From Carnobacterium pleistocenium FTR1 (GTDB lineage: Bacteria > Bacillota > Bacilli > Lactobacillales > Carnobacteriaceae): a stretch of DNA of 64,000 nt. The DNA is taken from NCBI RefSeq assembly GCF_000744285.1, contig NZ_JQLQ01000002.1, positions 806,001 through 870,000 on the forward strand. Reading direction: 5' to 3'. Each line of letters starts with the position of its first letter. Position 1 is the first letter of the stretch. The translations under genes and the position numbers were made by a program. Below the pieces are notes generated by a model that was not told the DNA's origin, did not search any database, and was given only the letters and a program-made list of their open reading frames with translations. This document shows, piece after piece, positions 30,939-64,000 of the stretch.

Positions 30939-31107
30939 GTTTAGATATAACTAGCTGACGATAAGAAAAAGGTTGTAGTTATTAAGAAACTAATGAATAA
31001 AATGATTTTTATTAAATTAGTTATTGTATTTAATTAACTATAGTATAATTAGTTTATACATATAGTTTAATTTGCAGAAAATAAAAAATGGAAGGAAGAT
31101 AATCAGT

Positions 31108-32217
31108 ATGTTGTCATTTTATGATGGATTTTTTCTAAATTTATGTGTGTTGATTACAGCACTATTTGTGTATAAAGAACTCGTAAAAAAAAGTAATTTC
31201 GAAATACAAACTGTAAGTACAGCTATTTTAAATGGCTTATTAGGTGGCCTTTTAGCTGCTGTTTTAATGTACTTTAGTATTGAAACCGGCACGAATTCTA
31301 TGATTGATCTTCGAATTATCCCATTCATGTTAGTCATTCTGTATGGAAATTGGTTAGCAACTTCTATAACGGCTACTTTAATTATTTTTATTAGATTTAT
31401 GATAGGTGTAAACATTTATTCATTTTACAATATTATTTTTATCCTTGCATCATGGATGGTCTTTCGTTATTTTTTCAAAAAAATTAAAAATCGGTGGGTT
31501 TCCATTATAGTTATGCTCACTTTGAGTAATATTGTTTATACAGTATTGATCATTATTATTTCAGCAGGTGAAGGTCTTAATCTACTTTTAATATCAACAT
31601 ACTGGATCATTTGTATTTTAGGGGGGCTCGTCTCTGTTTATATAATGGATTACTTGAATGAAACTGAGATGATCTTTAAAAGAAACAGTAAATATGCTTT
31701 TAAAGATCCTTTGACAGGTCTAAACAATGTTCGTAGTTTTGACTTGGCTTTTAATGAAGCAAAAAGGAGACATGAAAAATCGAATGAGAATATTTCTATT
31801 ATGATCTTAGATGTTGATTATTTTAAACAAATAAATGATACATATGGTCATCTAGAAGGCGATTTAGTATTGGGAAAATTAGCGACAATCTTAGAAATGA
31901 GTCAAAATCCTAACGATACTATTTCTAGAAATGGTGGAGAAGAATTTTCGGTGTTACTCAATGACTGTAACCATAAAGAAGCATATGAGAAAGCAGATGC
32001 ATTAAGAAAAATAGTAGAAAATTCTTTTTTTGCTGTAAATAACGGAACTATAATTATTCATGTTACAATTTCTGTAGGTATTACAACCTATAATGATACG
32101 ACAATCGTATTTGACAAACTTTATGACCATGCTGATCAAGCACTCTATGCAGCTAAAAGAAGCGGTAGAAATAAAGTTTGCTCTTATTCGCAAGTTACTG
32201 ATCCGATCTCTAATTAA
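31108..32217 (+). CDS. Membrane diguanylate cyclase (5TM receptor plus GGDEF)
   Basis: 369 residues. Six or so N-terminal membrane helices (about 5-195), of the 5TMR-LYT sensor type, are followed by a GGDEF domain (about 205-365). The active-site loop is GGEEF at 276-280 and the metal/substrate residues are in MILDVDYFKQINDTYGHLEGD, so it is probably active in making c-di-GMP. No RxxD inhibitory site is seen upstream of the loop. The ATG at 31108 follows GGAAGGAAG; earlier in-frame TTG starts lack a site. A TATAAT at 31044-31049 with TTATTG 17 bp upstream is the likely promoter. It could feed the exopolysaccharide operon at 56-63 kb. Confidence 0.88.
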   Translation: MLSFYDGFFLNLCVLITALFVYKELVKKSNFEIQTVSTAILNGLLGGLLAAVLMYFSIETGTNSMIDLRIIPFMLVILYGNWLATSITATLIIFIRFMIGVNIYSFYNIIFILASWMVFRYFFKKIKNRWVSIIVMLTLSNIVYTVLIIIISAGEGLNLLLISTYWIICILGGLVSVYIMDYLNETEMIFKRNSKYAFKDPLTGLNNVRSFDLAFNEAKRRHEKSNENISIMILDVDYFKQINDTYGHLEGDLVLGKLATILEMSQNPNDTISRNGGEEFSVLLNDCNHKEAYEKADALRKIVENSFFAVNNGTIIIHVTISVGITTYNDTTIVFDKLYDHADQALYAAKRSGRNKVCSYSQVTDPISN

Positions 32218-56026: not shown

Positions 56027-56082
56027 AAATTAGCCTGCACCTAAGAAAATCAGTCTTGACTTTCTTAGGTGCAGGCTAATTT
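56027..56082 (+). terminator. Long stem-loop ending the liv operon
   Basis: Arms 56027-56048 and 56061-56082 are perfectly complementary over 22 bp (core GCCTGCACC/GGTGCAGGC), 12-nt loop. The T tract is short (TTT), so terminator strength is uncertain. The rest of the gap to 56284 shows nothing definite. Confidence 0.7.
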
Positions 56083-56284: not shown

Positions 56285-58432
56285 GTGAGAAAAAAAGGGA
56301 TAATCATTGGAATAGCAATTAGTTTATTAGTTATCGGAGGGGGCCTTTTTTTTATGGATCAAACTGAAGAAACAGTTTACGAATCTGAAAATAATCTTTC
56401 TTATGTAGCAAAAGTTGAAGGAAAAGAATTCTATATTTATAAAGATGGTGAATGGACCACTACATTTTTAGCAGGTGTGAATATGGGGGCTGCAAAGCCA
56501 GGAACTTTTCCAGGAGAACTAGCTATTACAAAAGATGAATATTTGCGTTGGTTTAAACAAATCAAAGAGATGAATGCAGATGTTATACGGGTTTATACTA
56601 TTTTAAAACCGGATTTTTATGATGCACTGTATGAATTTAACTTGCAAAACGACGATCCGCTATACTTAATGCACGGTGTATATTTGAATGAAGAGGGAAT
56701 TGCTGAATTGAGCGACGCCTATGCGGAAGATGAAAAAATAAAAACAGACTTCATAAAAGATGCTACAGATTTAGTAGATGTACTGCACGGTCAAGCAAAC
56801 TTACCCGAAAAAGCCGGCTTCGCGTACGGGAAATATACAAAGGATATTTCTAAGTACGTTATAGGCTGGATATTAGGTGTTGAGTGGGATCCTCATTTTG
56901 TCAACCAAACAAATGAAGCGAACCCAGAAATGACTGCATTTGAAGGGGACTACTTGTATACAGATGGAGCTTCGCCGTTTGAGGTATTCTTAGCGGAAGT
57001 AGGGGACGCTACTTTATCCTATGAAGCTCAAGAGTATCAAACTATGCGCCCACTGAGCTATACCAACTGGTTAACGACAGATATGCTAGATCATCCAAAT
57101 GAACCGGATGCCACTGAGGATATGGCAGTCGTAAACACAGAACATATAAAAGGCACAGATCAATTAGAAACGGGATTGTTTGCTTCTTATCACGTTTATC
57201 CTTATTATCCAGAATTTTTGAACCATCAGCAGGAGTATGCTGAAGTGAAAAATGAAGACGGCAGTGTCAATACTTACAAAGCTTATTTAAGAGATTTGAT
57301 CAAAGAACATACTGTGCCAGTTATGGTGGCTGAATTTGGAATACCGGCTTCTAGGGGGAAAGCTCATGAAAGTTTGTACTCGGGGTTTAACCAAGGGGGC
57401 ATTGAGGAGACCGAACAAGGCGAAATGTTGATCGATATGATGCAGGATATACACGACGAAGGTTATTTAGGAGGACTCGTGTTCACGTGGCAAGATGAAT
57501 GGTTTAAACGAACTTGGAACACATTAGATTTTGATTTGTCTGATCGTCGACCATATTGGTCTAATCCTCAGACCAATGAGCAACATTTCGGGTTGCTGGC
57601 TTTTGATCCTGGGGAAGAAAAAAGCATAGTCTACGTTGATGGAAATGATTCTGAGTGGAGTGAAAAAGATCAGTTGTCAAAAAACGAAGAAAATACCCTT
57701 TCAGTAAAATCAGATGAAAAATACCTTTATGTGAAATTAGAAGCGAAAGATTTTGATTTTGAAAAAGATCAATTAGTTATTGCTATTGATGTAAAAGATG
57801 AGCAAGGAAATAGTCAAACGGCTGATGGTTCATTGATTTTTTCTCGACCAACTGATTTTCTAGTAAAAATAAACGGAGCGACGGGATCCTCCATAATGGT
57901 AGATGCTTATTACGACTCTTATTATTACCAGTATGCAGAAAAATTAGAAGCAATCGAGAAGCAATCAGTTTACACGAAAAAAAATTCAGGGTTGTTTAAC
58001 CCAATGAATCATGCTTTGTCAGCAGAATTGACATTGCCTCAAACAAATGAAGTTATCCCTTTTTCAAAGTATGAAACAGGAGCTTTAGTATTAGGAGATG
58101 GGAATCCGGAACATGAAGAGTACAATTCATTGACTGATTTTGCAGTGAAAGATGGTATTGTTGAAATTGCTTTACCATGGCAGTTATTGAATGTCATGGA
58201 TCCTTCAACGAAACAAATCATGGGGGATCTGTATCAAAATAAAGGTATTGAAGCAGTTAGTGTAGAAAATATTTATCTAGGGGCAGCTTTAGTGAAAAAG
58301 GAATCCACTGAGCCCAATAAAATAATGTTAGAACCTTATTCATGGGAACCGTGGGAATTGCCCACCTACCATGAACGATTGAAACCATCCTATTACTTAT
58401 TAAAAGAAGCTTTTTTAGAATATGATAAATAA
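56285..58432 (+). CDS. Membrane-anchored glycosidase-like protein with CBM9-like tail
   Basis: 715 residues. N-terminal signal anchor (about 5-25). A large domain (about 40-430) has the look of a TIM-barrel glycoside hydrolase: candidate acid/base E200 in GVEWDP, candidate nucleophile E350 in VAEFGIPAS and the aromatic strand GGLVFTWQDEWFKRTW. The C-terminal part (about 445-700) starts IVYVDGNDSEWSE and has DEKYLYVKLEAKDFDF, as in CBM9/DOMON carbohydrate-binding domains. GTG start at 56285 with AAAGGGG upstream. First gene of the operon with a c-di-GMP enzyme and a processive glycosyltransferase, so it may trim or process the exported polysaccharide. Family not assigned. Confidence 0.72.
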   Translation: MRKKGIIIGIAISLLVIGGGLFFMDQTEETVYESENNLSYVAKVEGKEFYIYKDGEWTTTFLAGVNMGAAKPGTFPGELAITKDEYLRWFKQIKEMNADVIRVYTILKPDFYDALYEFNLQNDDPLYLMHGVYLNEEGIAELSDAYAEDEKIKTDFIKDATDLVDVLHGQANLPEKAGFAYGKYTKDISKYVIGWILGVEWDPHFVNQTNEANPEMTAFEGDYLYTDGASPFEVFLAEVGDATLSYEAQEYQTMRPLSYTNWLTTDMLDHPNEPDATEDMAVVNTEHIKGTDQLETGLFASYHVYPYYPEFLNHQQEYAEVKNEDGSVNTYKAYLRDLIKEHTVPVMVAEFGIPASRGKAHESLYSGFNQGGIEETEQGEMLIDMMQDIHDEGYLGGLVFTWQDEWFKRTWNTLDFDLSDRRPYWSNPQTNEQHFGLLAFDPGEEKSIVYVDGNDSEWSEKDQLSKNEENTLSVKSDEKYLYVKLEAKDFDFEKDQLVIAIDVKDEQGNSQTADGSLIFSRPTDFLVKINGATGSSIMVDAYYDSYYYQYAEKLEAIEKQSVYTKKNSGLFNPMNHALSAELTLPQTNEVIPFSKYETGALVLGDGNPEHEEYNSLTDFAVKDGIVEIALPWQLLNVMDPSTKQIMGDLYQNKGIEAVSVENIYLGAALVKKESTEPNKIMLEPYSWEPWELPTYHERLKPSYYLLKEAFLEYDK

Positions 58433-58502
58433 AGCATTAAAGAACAAGGAAATAGTATACGAAACTTCACAAAAGAGGCGAGTGAAGTATAAGGAGGGAA
58501 GA

Positions 58503-60323
58503 ATGATGGAACCATCTTTTTATGCAGAAATAATTCAGGCAAGTCTAAATCCCTTTGTTTATTTTGAACTAGTTAAGGATAACAATAACAAGGTTATAGA
58601 TGGAATCTATAACGATTTAAATCCTGCTTACGAATGTTTGATAGGAATGAACAAAGATGCATTGATCGGAAAGAAAGTAACAGAAATTTCCGAGTCAATA
58701 AATTTAAAAACAATACAGTTGTTAAAAGCAAGTGAAAAAGCAAAAAAAAATGATAAAGCAGACTACTGTTTTGAATTAAAGAAACAGTTTTACCGTATCC
58801 AAATATTTTCGTTTGATAAGGAATATACTGCTATAACCTATACAGAATCAACAACTGAACTATTACAGAAATACGTTGCACAAGAAGATTTAAAACAAAC
58901 CGAAAGTCAATTGAGTTTGATATTAGATTCAACAGAAGAAGCAATTTGCGGGATCGATTTGAATGGGAGATGTACTTTTTTGAATCTCAATTGCAAGAAA
59001 TTATTGGGGATAAAAGAAGAGTCAGAAATGGTAGGACAACCAATTTTTAATCATTTAATTAAGGATTCGTTGTCATCAGAAGAAACGACCGTTAAGCAGG
59101 ACATCCTCAATAAATTGATTGGAAAACAGTCGTGTCAGTCAAGTGAAATTTATTTTATACGAATGGACGGAACCCTCTATCCAGTGGAATATTTTATTAA
59201 ACCAAAAACGAGTAACGGAACTTTACTTGGAGGAATATTAACTTTTGCTGATATGACAAAAAGAAAAGCAAAACAAGCGGAAATCAATCGCTTGATGTTT
59301 CATGATCCTTTAACAGGGTTGTTGAACCGCATAAAGTTTGAAAAGGTAAAAGTTGCGTTTGATAGTGAAAAAAATCTGCCATTGTCTATTATTATGGGAG
59401 ACATAAATGGATTGAAAAACATCAATCAACACTATGGATACCAAGAAGGTGATCAGCTTTTGAAAGTAACAACCAAAATTCTAAGTGAAAACATTCCAAA
59501 AAATGCATATATTGCTCGTTATGGTGAAGATGAATTTAGTATTTTATTGCCAAATACTGATAACCAGCGGGCACTTTGGCACATTCAAAGGATTCAAGAT
59601 GCGATTATGGAGCACAATGAAAAACTAGATAAAGACCAAGTATCAATTAGTATCGCATTAGGGTATGAAACAAAGTGCAATATGAATTGTGATATTCAAA
59701 AAGTGATCAATAATGCTCAAGATTACATGAATAAACATAAGATGCTCAACCACGATAGTATGCGAAATACCCTTTTAGCTTTTATTAAGACAACATTATT
59801 AGTACGAAGTAAGTTTACCGAGGAACATGCAGAAAGACTGGTGACTTTGTCAAAAAATGTTGGAAGAAAGATGAAATTATCACCTTATCAAATGGATGAG
59901 TTAGTTTTATTGGCGGAATTGCATGATATAGGTAAGATTGGGATCGATGATGCCATTTTGAATAAACCAGGCAAGTTGACGGTTGCAGAAATGGCTGAAA
60001 TGAAAAAACACTCTTTTATTGGCTATCAAATCATTAAGTCTATTCAAGGTTTAGCTGATGTTGCGTTGCCTATTTTGCACCATCATGAGCGCTCAGACGG
60101 AAAGGGATACCCAGATGGATTAACGAGATATGATATCCCTTTATTATCTCGTATTATTTCAGTAGTAGATGCTTATGACGCGATGACACAAGATCGACCA
60201 TATCGTAAAGCTATGACTCAAGAAGAAGCTATTGTTGAAATTAAAAAAAATTCAGGGACCCAATTTGATCCTGAAGTTGTTGGGTTTTTTTTAGAAAGTA
60301 TAGAAGAACGTTTAAAAGAATAA
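58503..60323 (+). CDS. PAS-GGDEF-HD-GYP c-di-GMP turnover enzyme
   Basis: 606 residues. N-terminal PAS-like region (1-100), a PAS domain (about 135-245, ILDSTEEAICGIDLNGRCTFLN), GGDEF (about 255-420) with active loop GEDEF at 341-345 instead of GGDEF, and HD-GYP (about 425-606) with HD at 474-475 (LHDIGKIG), HHERSDGKG and GYP at 535-537. HD-GYP looks fully active as a c-di-GMP phosphodiesterase; the cyclase loop has Glu at its second Gly, so activity is uncertain. No RxxD inhibitory site. No membrane segment. Start at 58503 or 58506 after AAGGAGG (58491-58497); the frame also runs upstream, overlapping the previous gene. Confidence 0.88.
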   Translation: MMEPSFYAEIIQASLNPFVYFELVKDNNNKVIDGIYNDLNPAYECLIGMNKDALIGKKVTEISESINLKTIQLLKASEKAKKNDKADYCFELKKQFYRIQIFSFDKEYTAITYTESTTELLQKYVAQEDLKQTESQLSLILDSTEEAICGIDLNGRCTFLNLNCKKLLGIKEESEMVGQPIFNHLIKDSLSSEETTVKQDILNKLIGKQSCQSSEIYFIRMDGTLYPVEYFIKPKTSNGTLLGGILTFADMTKRKAKQAEINRLMFHDPLTGLLNRIKFEKVKVAFDSEKNLPLSIIMGDINGLKNINQHYGYQEGDQLLKVTTKILSENIPKNAYIARYGEDEFSILLPNTDNQRALWHIQRIQDAIMEHNEKLDKDQVSISIALGYETKCNMNCDIQKVINNAQDYMNKHKMLNHDSMRNTLLAFIKTTLLVRSKFTEEHAERLVTLSKNVGRKMKLSPYQMDELVLLAELHDIGKIGIDDAILNKPGKLTVAEMAEMKKHSFIGYQIIKSIQGLADVALPILHHHERSDGKGYPDGLTRYDIPLLSRIISVVDAYDAMTQDRPYRKAMTQEEAIVEIKKNSGTQFDPEVVGFFLESIEERLKE

Positions 60324-60369
60324 GGTTTTATGACAGTTGTACCAAACCTCAGAAGACAGGAGAGATACA

Positions 60370-61410
60370 ATGAACTATTTATTGCTTGATGTTGCTTTGT
60401 TAGGGGTTATCAGTTTATTTATTACGAATCTATGCATTGTTATTTTTACAGTCATTATTAATCAGAAGTATCGATTAAATGAAAAAAGCTATCAAGAGTC
60501 ATGCAAACAAATACAACCGATCATGGAAGAAAAAATCAATGATCCGAGTCAGCTTGTCGAAAAATTAAATTTTTTTGAAACTAAAAAAGAACGAAAAGTT
60601 GTCTTTGATGTACTTATTAAATATGCTCAAATGCCTGGGACAGCTGGAAATAGTTTGTGGGTACTAGAGCAGCTAGGGTTTTATGATGAATTGATTGTAG
60701 ATGCTTCGAAAAAGTTAACTTTACAGCATATTCAATTTTTTAGTCAACTACGCTTCCATAAAGCGTTCCCTCTATTAATTAAGGGAACAAAAAGTAAAAA
60801 TTTCGAAATCAAGTACAATTCTTTTTATGCTATTTCATCCTTACCTTTATCAGAAAAAGAATTACCAATTTATATCGAAGCTTTGTTAGAGTCAGCTATT
60901 ATGAGTGATCGCATTATTGATATGTTGAATCATCTCCAAATGGATGTTGAAAAAACCCTTCATTTTTTACGTGAAGCTACACTAGATAAAAATAAAATCA
61001 TCTTATTATTAGTTTTAAGAAACCGTTTAAAAAAAGAAGACCCCTTATTGGTAAAGCAACTTTTACCTTACTTAGAAGAATCAAGAGAAGTTCGGATAGC
61101 TACTATTCGTGCACTGGCTACAAGTGAAAATGACTTTTACTTTTCTTTTTTTCAAGAACTATATAAAAAAGAAAGCGATTGGCAAGTGCGGGCAGTACTA
61201 GCAAAAGACCTTCCGTTGTTAAACGCACCTAGTGAACAGGAATTACTAATGGACATGCTAAAAGATGAAAATTGGTGGGTACGCCATAATGCTACAAATA
61301 ATATGAAAAAACGTTATCCAGATAATGTCATGCTTGATCAGAAATATGAGACGTTTGAAACTGCTGATCAATTGACACAATTAAAAATGAAAGGAAGTGG
61401 GACTGAATGA
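60370..61410 (+). CDS. Membrane-anchored HEAT-repeat protein
   Basis: 346 residues. N-terminal membrane helix (about 8-32), then an alpha-solenoid with HEAT-like repeats, clearest at the end (SREVRIATIRALATSEN, SDWQVRAVLAKDLPLL, ENWWVRHNATNNMKKRYP). No enzymatic motif. Co-transcribed between the c-di-GMP enzyme and the glycosyltransferase, whose start it overlaps by 4 bases. Inference: a scaffold or regulatory partner of the glycosyltransferase. CAGGAGAGATAC ribosome site at the chosen ATG. Confidence 0.82.
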   Translation: MNYLLLDVALLGVISLFITNLCIVIFTVIINQKYRLNEKSYQESCKQIQPIMEEKINDPSQLVEKLNFFETKKERKVVFDVLIKYAQMPGTAGNSLWVLEQLGFYDELIVDASKKLTLQHIQFFSQLRFHKAFPLLIKGTKSKNFEIKYNSFYAISSLPLSEKELPIYIEALLESAIMSDRIIDMLNHLQMDVEKTLHFLREATLDKNKIILLLVLRNRLKKEDPLLVKQLLPYLEESREVRIATIRALATSENDFYFSFFQELYKKESDWQVRAVLAKDLPLLNAPSEQELLMDMLKDENWWVRHNATNNMKKRYPDNVMLDQKYETFETADQLTQLKMKGSGTE

Positions 61411-62816
61411 TGCTGATAGAAAATTTCATTTACTACTTTAGTTTGTTTATTTTAGGGTATTCTATTATAGTCACAACCTTGTATCTTATTCTTATCCTTG
61501 TTTCTTGGAAACGATTAAGAGAATTTATTGAAATCATTCAAACAAATATTACAAGTGTCAGTCATTATACTAAACCAATTTCTATTGTTGTACCGGCTTA
61601 TAATGAAGAACAAACAATTGTGGAAAGTGTCCGCTCTTTTTTACAGTTAGACTACCCAGAATTTGAAGTGATCGTCGTTAACGATGGATCAACAGATGAG
61701 ACAATGGCTAAACTGATTCATTTTTTTGATTTATATCCTGTAGAACTAGATAGTGATATAAAGATCGAAACAAACCTTATCAAACAAGCTTATAAATCTC
61801 ATCAAAATTCAGGTTTGATTTTATTAGATAAAGAAAATGGCGGCAAAGCAGATGCATTGAATGCCGGCATAAATGTCTCTTTGTACCCATTGTTTTGTGC
61901 GATCGATGCTGATTGTATCATTGAAAAAGATGCTTTGTTACGGATTGTTTCACCATTTCTTAAATATGAAGAAACGATTGCAGTAGGCGGGATGGTTCGA
62001 ATCGCAAATGGCAGTACTATAAAAAATGGGGAAATCATTCAAACCAAAGTTCCTAAGAAAATGATTGAACGGTTTCAAGTTATTGAATATTTTCGAGCTT
62101 TCTTAACGAGTCGTGTCGGTTGGCAACGATTCAATGCACTAATGATCATTTCAGGAGCATTTGGCCTATTTAAAAAATCTGCTGTATTAGAAGTTGGGGG
62201 ATTTGAACGAACGATTGGGGAAGATATGGAACTTGTTTTAAGATTACATGAAAAGTTCCATCAAAACAGTGAACCTTACCGCATTGATTTTGCTTCAGAT
62301 GCCGTTTGCTGGACACAAGCACCTGACAGTTATAAAGATTTGAAAAGTCAACGGGTGAGGTGGCATAGAGGTCTATTTGATTCTTTGAATAGACATCAAA
62401 AAATGTTGGGTAATCCTAAATACGGGTCTGTTGGTCTAGCTTCAATGCCCTACTTCTTTTTAGTAGAGCTGTTTGGACCGATGATTGAAATGATAGGATA
62501 CATTGTAATGGGACTAGCTATTTATTTAGACATCCTCTCTTCTTATGTCGGTATTATCTTTTTGCTAACCTGTTTGATGGGGATTTTATTTTCTTATTCG
62601 GCTATTCTGTTTGAAGAAATTTCTTATAAACGTTACAGCAATTTGAAAGATATTTTATTGCTATTCATGGTTAGTATTTTAGAGCAGTTCTATTATCGTC
62701 CATTGACGGTATGGTGGAGAGTGACAGCATTTTTTAATTATCGTAAAGGTAGTAAAAAATGGGGAACAATTGAACGGAAAAATTTCGATACAAAAACCGA
62801 AAATAATGAAATATAA
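61407..62816 (+). CDS. Processive family-2 glycosyltransferase (PgaC/HAS-like)
   Basis: 469 residues. N-terminal membrane helix (about 10-33). GT-A domain: VPAYNEE, VVNDGSTDE, metal motif D167-A-D169, catalytic E272-D273 (TIGEDMEL) and Q315-R-V-R-W319. Three or four C-terminal membrane helices (about 345-460) follow. D,D,D,QxxRW is the signature of processive synthases that polymerise and extrude polysaccharide (PgaC, hyaluronan and cellulose synthases). It has no PilZ domain, unlike BcsA, so any c-di-GMP control must act through a partner. Polymer identity unknown. Confidence 0.9.
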   Translation: MMLIENFIYYFSLFILGYSIIVTTLYLILILVSWKRLREFIEIIQTNITSVSHYTKPISIVVPAYNEEQTIVESVRSFLQLDYPEFEVIVVNDGSTDETMAKLIHFFDLYPVELDSDIKIETNLIKQAYKSHQNSGLILLDKENGGKADALNAGINVSLYPLFCAIDADCIIEKDALLRIVSPFLKYEETIAVGGMVRIANGSTIKNGEIIQTKVPKKMIERFQVIEYFRAFLTSRVGWQRFNALMIISGAFGLFKKSAVLEVGGFERTIGEDMELVLRLHEKFHQNSEPYRIDFASDAVCWTQAPDSYKDLKSQRVRWHRGLFDSLNRHQKMLGNPKYGSVGLASMPYFFLVELFGPMIEMIGYIVMGLAIYLDILSSYVGIIFLLTCLMGILFSYSAILFEEISYKRYSNLKDILLLFMVSILEQFYYRPLTVWWRVTAFFNYRKGSKKWGTIERKNFDTKTENNEI

Positions 62817-63468
62817 AATTAAAAAAACGATTATTATTTTAATAGAAATTCAAGAAAAATAGATTTTATTAGTCAGCATAGAAGAGAAAAAGGTATAGCG
62901 GATATGAAATTAAATCAAGCTAAAAAAGAAAATGAAAATCAGATTATTATTTAACTAGTTTTCAAAAAAAACAAACGTTTCATAATCCGCTTACTTTGAA
63001 ATAAATTCTGAAAAGTGACAAAATTTTGACTAAATAAATGATGAATAAAAATAAGCTTAGAAATGCTATCAATCCGCTATTTTTTTTATGTGTTTAGTTA
63101 AAAGTAAAGACGTTATTAAAACTAGTTTGATCATTTTTTAATGATTCTTTAAGAAAACCTTAAATTTTCCTTGGACAACTTTAGAAGAGTTTGTTATTCT
63201 AAAGGTACATAGTAATTATATTAAGCGAATAACCCTACAATTTTTTTAAAATAGCAATTATCATTATAGCTTATTTAAATCATTTCATAAAAAATTGCTT
63301 TGGAGAGGTAATGCTTGCACATAGTTTGTTGTGAATGATTCAGGATAATTATATCCTGAGTCATTTTTTGTACAAATACTTATTAGAAAGCTTAGTTATT
63401 TCTTAATAAGAATTGAGTATACTAAAGATAGAACAAGTAATAAAAAACGTATGATGGAGGATCCTAAA
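62817..63468 (+). promoter_or_regulatory. 650-bp intergenic region with a short terminated transcript
   Basis: 62817-63170 shows nothing definable. A promoter TTGGAC-18-TATTCT with extended -10 TG (63171-63200) is followed by a possible seven-codon ORF at 63311-63334 (MLAHSLL) behind GGAGAGG. Directly after it is a hairpin, AATGATTCAGGATA / TATCCTGAGTCATT, with a T run ending near 63369. A TATACT box at 63418-63423 could be the promoter of the DUF1002 gene. Confidence 0.55.
63333..63369 (+). terminator. Terminator/attenuator upstream of DUF1002 gene
   Basis: A 14-bp stem (one mismatch) with a 3-4 nt loop and TTTTTT. It begins at the stop codon of the seven-codon ORF, 100 bases before the DUF1002 start codon. 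Confidence 0.75.
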
Positions 63469-64000
63469 ATGAATCGATTTAAAAAACTGAGTTTAACAAC
63501 TTTAACTGCAATGAGCTTAATGGGAGCAACTTTAGTTGTCTTGCCACAATCTGCCGGTGCCACAACGGATGGGATCGATACAACGGTTGTTGATGAAAAA
63601 TGGGGAAAACCTACTTTTATCTACGGTGGTGGATTATCAGAAAGTCAAATAACTGAGACAGAAGCGCTATTAGGGATTGAAAATTCTGAGAATGTAGCTG
63701 TCAGTAGCGTTTCAGGACAGGATTTGATTGATTACTTAGGCGAGGGATCTGGAAATACAGCCAGCATGATTTCATCCGTAATGGTACAGAAACAAGATAC
63801 TGGTGAAGGTGTCGATGTCGAAATCGTTAATCCAGAAAATATCAGCCAAATCACACAAGACCAATACGCAAATGCAGCGATTACTGCAGGAGTCAGTGAT
63901 GTAAAAATCGAAGTAGCAAGTGTTAGCAAGGTAACGGGAGAAAGTGCTTTAACTGGAATTTATAAAGCTTTCGACGTTAACGGAGAAGAATTAGACCAAG
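63469..64000 (+). CDS. Secreted DUF1002 protein (YpuA-like), 3' partial
   Basis: The first 177 codons are in the window and run off the right edge. Signal peptide at about 1-31 (basic MNRFKK, hydrophobic core, cleavage after SAGA). The mature part begins TTDGIDTTVVDEKWGKPTFIYGGGLSESQITETEALLG and continues VAVSSVSGQDLIDYLGEGS, the DUF1002/YpuA pattern. Function unknown. Strong GATGGAGGATCC ribosome site. Confidence 0.85.
   Translation, partial: MNRFKKLSLTTLTAMSLMGATLVVLPQSAGATTDGIDTTVVDEKWGKPTFIYGGGLSESQITETEALLGIENSENVAVSSVSGQDLIDYLGEGSGNTASMISSVMVQKQDTGEGVDVEIVNPENISQITQDQYANAAITAGVSDVKIEVASVSKVTGESALTGIYKAFDVNGEELDQ

Follow-up and report, generated by a model that had tools for sequence, protein, structure and literature searches.

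Among Gram-positive polysaccharide synthase operons tied to c-di-GMP are pssA-E in Listeria (PMC4125290) and ydaJKLMN in Bacillus (PMC13274460). The receptor is PssE, an I-site GGDEF protein, in Listeria (PMC4125290) and YdaK in Bacillus (PMC13274460); ydaJ encodes a putative glycosyl hydrolase (PMC13274460). Clostridial ccsZABHI and BcsA systems combine a processive GT2 with an associated glycosidase; the synthases themselves, CcsA and BcsA, include a PilZ domain, and their partners are CcsB and BcsB (PMC7710045). A further cassette, CP4_0460-CP4_0468 of Clostridium perfringens NELoc-2, was listed in 2010 without a function (PMC2879425). It encodes VTC, a tubulin/FtsZ-like protein, CotH, a 685-aa hypothetical protein, a 377-aa heat repeat protein and a 466-aa GT2 annotated as 'chitin synthase' (PMC2879425). 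NELoc-2 genes are present in all necrotic-enteritis-causing strains of one study (PMC5964661).

The locus described here lies at 56285-62816 of a 64,000-nucleotide stretch of Carnobacterium pleistocenium FTR1 (the window). Like the pss and yda operons it appears to be a Gram-positive synthase operon tied to c-di-GMP, and its first gene may be compared with ydaJ. It differs in having a HEAT-repeat subunit and a phosphodiesterase-type protein; no HEAT subunit is seen in the consulted portions of the accounts of pssA-E and ydaJKLMN (PMC4125290, PMC13274460). With ccsZABHI and BcsA it shares a predicted processive GT2 and an associated glycosidase-like protein, but here the synthase is without PilZ and the partner is HEAT.

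The four-gene operon

Four same-strand genes were found by open reading frame and domain searches, with the domains described earlier. A strong intrinsic-terminator-like hairpin of 20 pairs (56031..56078; sequence scan) divides them from upstream CBS/branched-chain amino-acid transporter genes. Gene 1 (56285..58432, + strand) encodes a predicted membrane-anchored extracellular glycosidase-like protein of 715 aa. Gene 2 (58503..60323, +; 606 aa) encodes a PAS-GGDEF-HD-GYP protein, as the earlier note had read it; a visible ribosome-binding site favours its start over the open frame from 58422. Gene 3 (60370..61410, +; 346 aa) encodes the membrane-anchored HEAT-repeat subunit, and its start is favoured over the frame from 60337 on the same grounds. 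Gene 4 (61407..62816, +; 469 aa) encodes a processive-type GT2 synthase. Of the "short gaps or overlaps" first reported, an overlap stands only between HEAT stop and GT start, as ATGA; with the supported starts the other junctions are gaps of 70 nt (genes 1-2) and 46 nt (genes 2-3). All four genes recur, in this order, in two of five congeners examined (G001 and G003, loci L013 and L014), so the arrangement is more than chance. The reading as a single operon is supported. A promoter scan of the locus gave no excess over shuffled sequences, and an Rfam search of the window gave no riboswitch matches. The c-di-GMP-I riboswitch model matched nowhere in the source genome or the five congeners, but as its control matched nowhere either, this negative carries no weight.

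Searches of gene 1 against Pfam and PDB sequences found nothing, and NCBIfam gave nothing over cut-off. Its predicted structure has a clan GH-A glycosidase-like barrel, with E200 and E350 as the candidate catalytic pair, and a beta-rich C-terminal part; this model agrees with the anchored glycosidase-like protein proposed earlier, while for the CBM9-like tail proposed with it the analysis speaks neither for nor against. The best structural match is GH157 (VIA, Z 32.1, 2.4 A over 312 residues, 16% identity); GH2 scores lower (Z 27.6), and no family HMM exceeds its cut-off. GH157 enzymes are beta-1,3-glucanases. The modelled fold suggests a beta-1,3-glucan, and the neighbours of the pair in Halosolutus (glmS, nucleotidyltransferase) suggest a polymer with an amino sugar. 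The polymer is left unassigned because these point to different sugars.

The HD-GYP motifs of gene 2 are intact (HDIGK and HHERSDGKGYP, matching HD..GK and HHExxDGxGYP), and a c-di-GMP phosphodiesterase is predicted. Its GGDEF domain is degenerate: GEDEF departs from the GG(D/E)EF motif of diguanylate cyclases, and PKNA stands in place of the RxxD I-site. The operon thus has no I-site GGDEF receptor of the Listeria Pss type. Both features, GEDEF and I-site loss, are kept in L013 and L014. Genome domain searches found a single HD-GYP protein and no EAL protein in the source genome (G000), G001 and G003, so in the source genome no phosphodiesterase other than the operon's HD-GYP protein is recognised. 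PilZ, whose control matched in 5/14 genomes, was found in none of the three, which extends its reported absence from the locus to the whole source genome. The source genome has two further GGDEF proteins. One, a candidate diguanylate cyclase with GGEEF and an N-terminal membrane part, lies elsewhere in the window (31072..32217, +). Given this sole phosphodiesterase in the operon and the failure to find PilZ, a c-di-GMP link of the operon in this genome, as proposed before, is likely.

Gene 3 has HEAT repeats (PF13646) behind an N-terminal hydrophobic segment, judged by eye, and lies directly 5' of the GT. Domain search and alignment of gene 4 gave D93, D167/D169, E272-D273 and Q315-R-V-R-W. 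D93, D167, D169, E272-D273, Q315, R316, R318 and W319 are invariant in 15 aligned sequences. These motifs correspond to the D, D, D, Q(Q/R)xRW pattern of processive GT2 enzymes and are accompanied by membrane helices; polymerase activity is predicted. No PilZ match was found in the protein, and so no C-terminal PilZ of the BcsA type. The best curated family match is TIGR03937 (PgaC/IcaA), at 137.8 bits against a cut-off of 422.3. The model of a natural HEAT-GT fusion, L086, reached pLDDT 87.7 and pTM 0.84, and its GT part scores Z of about 19-26 against synthases of hyaluronan, cellulose and chitin. Motifs and model together uphold the assignment of gene 4 as a putative processive synthase.

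Distribution of the HEAT-GT pair

Profile searches of a 398-genome phylum sample placed HEAT directly 5' of the GT, or fused to it, in 32/33 synthase loci, some from genomes of a common genus, so that neither these counts nor those for the upstream gene are independent. The exception is G531, a GT without HEAT. In a second collection (L055-L096, n=42), HEAT is adjacent or fused in 39 of the 40 loci with upstream sequence (all but L061 and L074), and the profile was built partly from these same loci; in L060 HEAT lies 6 kb off. The HMM also finds HEAT beside the GT in 14/14 plasmid records, three of them haloarchaeal and three from Mesorhizobium ciceri, and annotators had independently named the gene 'HEAT repeat' in 12 of 13 annotated records. 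More distant GT2 loci had no HEAT (0/37), though in three of them (L101, L119, L129) fewer than 600 bases precede the match, too little for HEAT to have readily shown; the 37 are L097-L134 (n=38) less L133, a truncated GT of the pair's clade which does have HEAT. HEAT and GT are naturally fused in L073, L084, L086, L090 and L093 and in G213 and G318. Searching 148 relatives with one HEAT sequence recovered just eight, because the sequence diverges fast, and profiles were needed. An alignment mixing HEAT-only and GT-only rows (A4) was dropped, as the HEAT rows fell on the GT part.

Adjacency, the ATGA overlap and repeated fusion bear out the tie between HEAT and synthase suspected from the single locus. 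As judged from sequence, the conserved unit is a membrane-anchored HEAT protein with one clade of processive-type GT2, HEAT lying directly upstream or fused. The pair spans bacteria of several phyla and haloarchaea.

The earlier note had offered HEAT as a receptor or scaffold for c-di-GMP control. The scaffold half held up. As a general rule the receptor half did not, because the pair occurs in genomes without GGDEF: all seven Bacteroidota genomes with the pair, and G021, which has no GGDEF, EAL, PilZ or HD-GYP. Three haloarchaea have the pair with a response regulator upstream. HEAT might still bind c-di-GMP and gate the synthase in the source lineage, with gene 2 as a local sink. The lack of PilZ in G000, G001 and G003, the sole recognised phosphodiesterase within the operon and the intact GGDEF protein just upstream of HEAT in G219 and G258, the nearest synthase relatives outside the genus, would fit, as would the GGDEF or HD-GYP genes near many other pairs. 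This local role is nevertheless very improbable given the same family in genomes without GGDEF and in haloarchaea. Inspection of HEAT by eye showed no known c-di-GMP motif, and in an alignment of 44 HEAT proteins, conservation of at least 60% falls mainly on hydrophobic residues or VR-type repeat positions, besides two Trp and a single Asp close to the C-terminus.

The gene upstream of HEAT and its proposed role

In the phylum sample, the gene just 5' of HEAT encodes a receiver domain in 19/33 loci and GGDEF and/or HD-GYP in 7/33 (8/33 if a Pfam match in G357 is included), four of the seven also with a receiver. A GGDEF or HD-GYP gene lies anywhere within the fetched 8-13 kb in 16/33 stretches. 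The earlier note expected these genes to stay with HEAT-GT in relatives, and the picture is mixed. The slot holds a glycosidase in 6/33 and nothing recognised in 4/33. Two of these counts sit awkwardly with the two-subunit model below: a cytosolic regulator is not always there, and the 16/33 stretches leave room for a wider c-di-GMP link. At least 10 slot changes are needed on the GT tree, which leaves out L043, L046, L051, L053, L229, L230 and the second GT of L089; slot labels were assigned by hand, with L069, L078 and L079, where the receiver is one gene further up, unlabelled. Some Gram-negative loci have an outer-membrane or TPR gene between receiver and HEAT. YaiO-type outer-membrane or TPR genes lie near the pair in several Gram-negative relatives, which would fit polymer export. 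The c-di-GMP enzyme found here is only one among several interchangeable slot regulators, which corrects the reading of the operon as simply a new c-di-GMP synthase system.

Sequence and structural models make it fairly probable that the operon's product is a membrane-bound polysaccharide synthase of two subunits, with HEAT as obligate structural subunit and the upstream regulator probably acting on it. The likely task of the gene 4 enzyme is to polymerise a sugar chain and export it by extrusion. HEAT would have a single N-terminal helix as membrane anchor and a cytosolic solenoid, and is possibly the docking site for the regulator encoded just upstream; both this site and the direction of regulation are presumed. 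That regulator has a receiver domain in most relatives, and here would be the PAS-(degenerate GGDEF)-HD-GYP phosphodiesterase. The surface-anchored glycosidase-like protein may trim or remodel the emerging polymer.

Gene 2 could instead act by contact, its degenerate GGDEF being an allosteric nucleotide sensor that touches HEAT-GT while phosphodiesterase activity is secondary. The conservation of GEDEF and I-site loss in L013 and L014 speaks for this, as do the degenerate slot GGDEF domains of five fused loci, the degenerate appearance of those in G213, G318 and G268, and the prevalence in the slot of the receiver, a protein-protein signalling domain. It is somewhat unlikely, however, as intact HD-GYP residues in the genome's only recognised phosphodiesterase make enzymatic loss unlikely, and slot GGDEF domains are intact elsewhere (L015-L019, L065, G219, G258).

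Regulator and synthase may also be merely co-transcribed, HEAT serving only in assembly or stability and control being transcriptional. Variable slot content, including glycosidases or nothing recognised, is consistent with this. Receivers without evident output domain directly beside HEAT (frames of 127-137 aa, e.g. G339, G254, G168) argue for a protein target, and gene overlaps and fusions also point away from this reading, which is unlikely. The two-subunit synthase is preferred, and the pair allows one to test directly whether two-component signals can act on a polymer synthase by a route other than transcription. A broader and more tentative version makes HEAT a universal input adaptor, whose solenoid would gate a class of bacterial and archaeal synthases and serve as dock for regulators that can be exchanged: phospho-receivers, GGDEF proteins, whether active or degenerate, and, here, the PAS-GGDEF-HD-GYP phosphodiesterase.

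Comparison with known synthase systems

No description of the HEAT-GT2 pair as a system was recognised in the open-access literature searched, and HEAT is apparently an undescribed synthase subunit within that literature, widespread in several bacterial phyla and haloarchaea. PgaC/IcaA and the hyaluronan and chitin synthases are the nearest by curated family and by structural match to the L086 model. PgaC/IcaA differs in its partner, which is PgaD rather than HEAT, and the match scores under the curated cut-off. Gram-positive Pel loci share a CotH/DUF4956/polyphosphate-polymerase (VTC-like) module with one branch of relatives but otherwise have Pel genes, the c-di-GMP receptor PelD and another synthase (PMC7112168). 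The NELoc-2 cassette resembles loci L044, L047, L085 and L096; by size and annotation alone, its core order matches glycosidase-HEAT-GT, and as listed it has a CotH/VTC module instead of a c-di-GMP enzyme (PMC2879425). The NELoc-2 genes thereby gain a function hypothesis. If true, the HEAT adaptor would be a control principle unlike PilZ, PgaD, PelD or I-site receptors.

The operon and its HEAT-GT core

The operon (56285-62816) follows a strong hairpin in the window sequence (56031-56078) and consists of four genes on one strand. In order, these encode a membrane-anchored glycosidase-like protein, a PAS-GGDEF-HD-GYP protein, a membrane HEAT-repeat protein and a GT2 synthase. Ribosome-binding sites favour starts at 58503 for gene 2 and 60370 for gene 3; the HEAT and GT genes overlap by ATGA. 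The genome is 2.66 Mb in size. Two congeners, G001 and G003 (loci L013 and L014), carry the identical layout, and neither HEAT nor GT was found in G002 or G004 at the thresholds applied. G005 keeps a truncated GT (L043) next to a gene that is transposase-like by eye. Decayed-looking copies, in which the GT and HEAT genes are cut short or broken up, are present at L043 (9450-11586), L046 and L053 (G005, G020 and G022). Downstream of the operon, 63451-64000 (open at the window end) encodes a secreted-looking protein which begins MMEDPKMNRFKKLSL; counterparts of about 330-347 aa occupy the same position in G001, G003 and G005 (L013, L014 and L043).

The HEAT-GT pair, a membrane HEAT-repeat protein directly upstream of or fused to a synthase of this GT2 clade, is the conserved unit. 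Among the best 80 of 425 relatives in the genome collection, there are 42 loci (L055-L096) whose GT match reaches E 4e-72 or better; with two of them lacking upstream sequence, 40 could be scored. HEAT is fused or directly upstream in 39 of these, by a profile iterated partly on the same loci; the exception is L060, where HEAT lies about 6 kb from the GT. Ten Lactobacillales-type seeds had given 35 proteins in the first round of this profile. The phylum and plasmid sets lie outside its training, except for the window's own locus, and species may overlap between collections. The GT was found at E 1e-60 in 31 of 398 genomes from the window's phylum (33 loci counting second copies), and HEAT is fused or adjacent in all of these loci except that of G531. 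By profile, HEAT is also adjacent in 14/14 plasmid records found by tblastn (weakest E 1.7e-8), three of which are Mesorhizobium ciceri. NCBI annotation names HEAT in 12 of the 13 annotated records and calls the remaining one, from Emticicia, hypothetical. No HEAT match was found in 37 control loci of more distant GT2 genes, three of which (L101, L119 and L129) have fewer than 600 bases upstream of the GT2 match. HEAT and GT form a single polypeptide in L073, L084, L086, L090, L093, G213 and G318.

Variable neighbours of the pair

The content of the slot directly 5' of HEAT varies. Among the 33 phylum loci, some of which come from genomes of the same genus, it is a receiver protein without GGDEF by the profiles used in 15 (one, G357, has a Pfam GGDEF match), receiver plus GGDEF in four, GGDEF in two, and GGDEF plus HD-GYP only in the window's locus. 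The glycosidase fills it in six, one with VTC-DUF4956-CotH and one fused to HEAT (G186); nothing was recognised in four, and HEAT is absent in one. Counting both strands, 16 of the 33 fetched stretches have GGDEF or HD-GYP genes at some position. A quick-method tree of 87 GT domains (65 rows labelled; SH-aLRT only) has at least 10 slot changes, with receiver presence changing at least four times and GGDEF presence at least six. The closest relatives of the window outside the genus, G219 and G258, have an intact GGDEF protein in the slot.

Three haloarchaea have a response regulator 5' of HEAT-GT; it is immediately adjacent in two, and in Halosolutus a single small gene intervenes. The Halosolutus pair is followed directly by a sugar-phosphate nucleotidyltransferase and glmS (L233, 6453-9427), which suggests that the substrate may be an amino sugar. 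In several Gram-negative relatives the locus also has YaiO-type outer-membrane or TPR genes. On a Deinococcus radiophilus plasmid, the gene just 5' of HEAT-GT (L239, 1-1673) is annotated as a tetratricopeptide repeat protein; it matches the operon glycosidase profile instead (E 1e-103).

In L050, L051 and L052 the GT has a short HEAT-like partner (195-204 aa), and the next gene product contains a CDP-glycerol glycerophosphotransferase domain (domain tested in L050); this may be a teichoic-acid-like branch. In Bacteroidota (L068, 9974-13402; L082, 11447-13870; L242, 5529-7257) an LTA-synthase/sulfatase-like domain, recognised by eye, is fused to or follows the GT and perhaps decorates the polymer; NCBI names the Emticicia protein LTA synthase family. 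In G186, one open frame of 1089 aa comprises glycosidase and HEAT (L208, 4348-7614), and would join an extracellular glycosidase to a cytosolic HEAT solenoid through the membrane.

Possible connection to c-di-GMP

The earlier note had proposed a c-di-GMP-linked system. Judged by gene content, HEAT-GT does not require c-di-GMP in general. Neither GGDEF nor PilZ was found in the seven Bacteroidota genomes with the pair (four of them MAGs), and no GGDEF, EAL, PilZ or HD-GYP was found in G021.

Within the window's genus the picture is clearer. In the window's own genome, the GGDEF domain of gene 2 reads GEDEF and lacks an I-site; the HD-GYP domain of the protein keeps all its motifs. It is therefore read as a predicted phosphodiesterase, opposing two other GGDEF proteins (motif GGEEF). 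The window's genome (G000), G001 and G003 each have a single HD-GYP, located in the operon, and no EAL or PilZ was found in them. G002, G004 and G005 have EAL, and HD-GYP was not found. The phosphodiesterase models were HD_5 (PF13487) and EAL only, which other types could escape. In G004 and G005 PilZ was found within an open frame of 739 aa that is probably cellulose-synthase-like. Across these six genomes operon and EAL are mutually exclusive, and two of the three EAL genomes also have the PilZ frame; the pattern would fit two c-di-GMP/EPS systems that substitute for one another within the genus.

Structure models and known systems

The glycosidase model (pLDDT 86.2, pTM 0.87) best matches GH157 (Z 32.1, 2.4 A, 312 residues), followed by GH2 (Z about 27). 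Going by clan GH-A, the candidates for acid/base and nucleophile are E200 and E350. In two CotH-type relatives (L083, 6673-8814; L096, 4666-6843) the operon glycosidase has G at the predicted nucleophile position, and may be a non-catalytic, polymer-binding version. In the model of the L086 fusion (pLDDT 87.7, pTM 0.84), the GT part matches a mannosyltransferase at Z 27.2; its Z scores are about 23-26 against hyaluronan synthases and about 21-25 against BcsA. HEAT would lie in the cytosol, judging by the positive charges after the helix.

No account of the HEAT-GT pair as a system was found in the open-access literature searched. The NELoc-2 cassette of C. perfringens comprises VTC, FtsZ-like, CotH, a 685-aa hypothetical, HEAT and GT2, with no function given (PMC2879425); by the sizes and annotation listed there, its order matches that of the glycosidase-HEAT-GT relatives. 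Dedicated c-di-GMP receptors are features of Listeria Pss and Bacillus Yda. Among synthase-dependent exopolysaccharide systems, the HEAT-GT operon is rated a variant, and apparently a new one.
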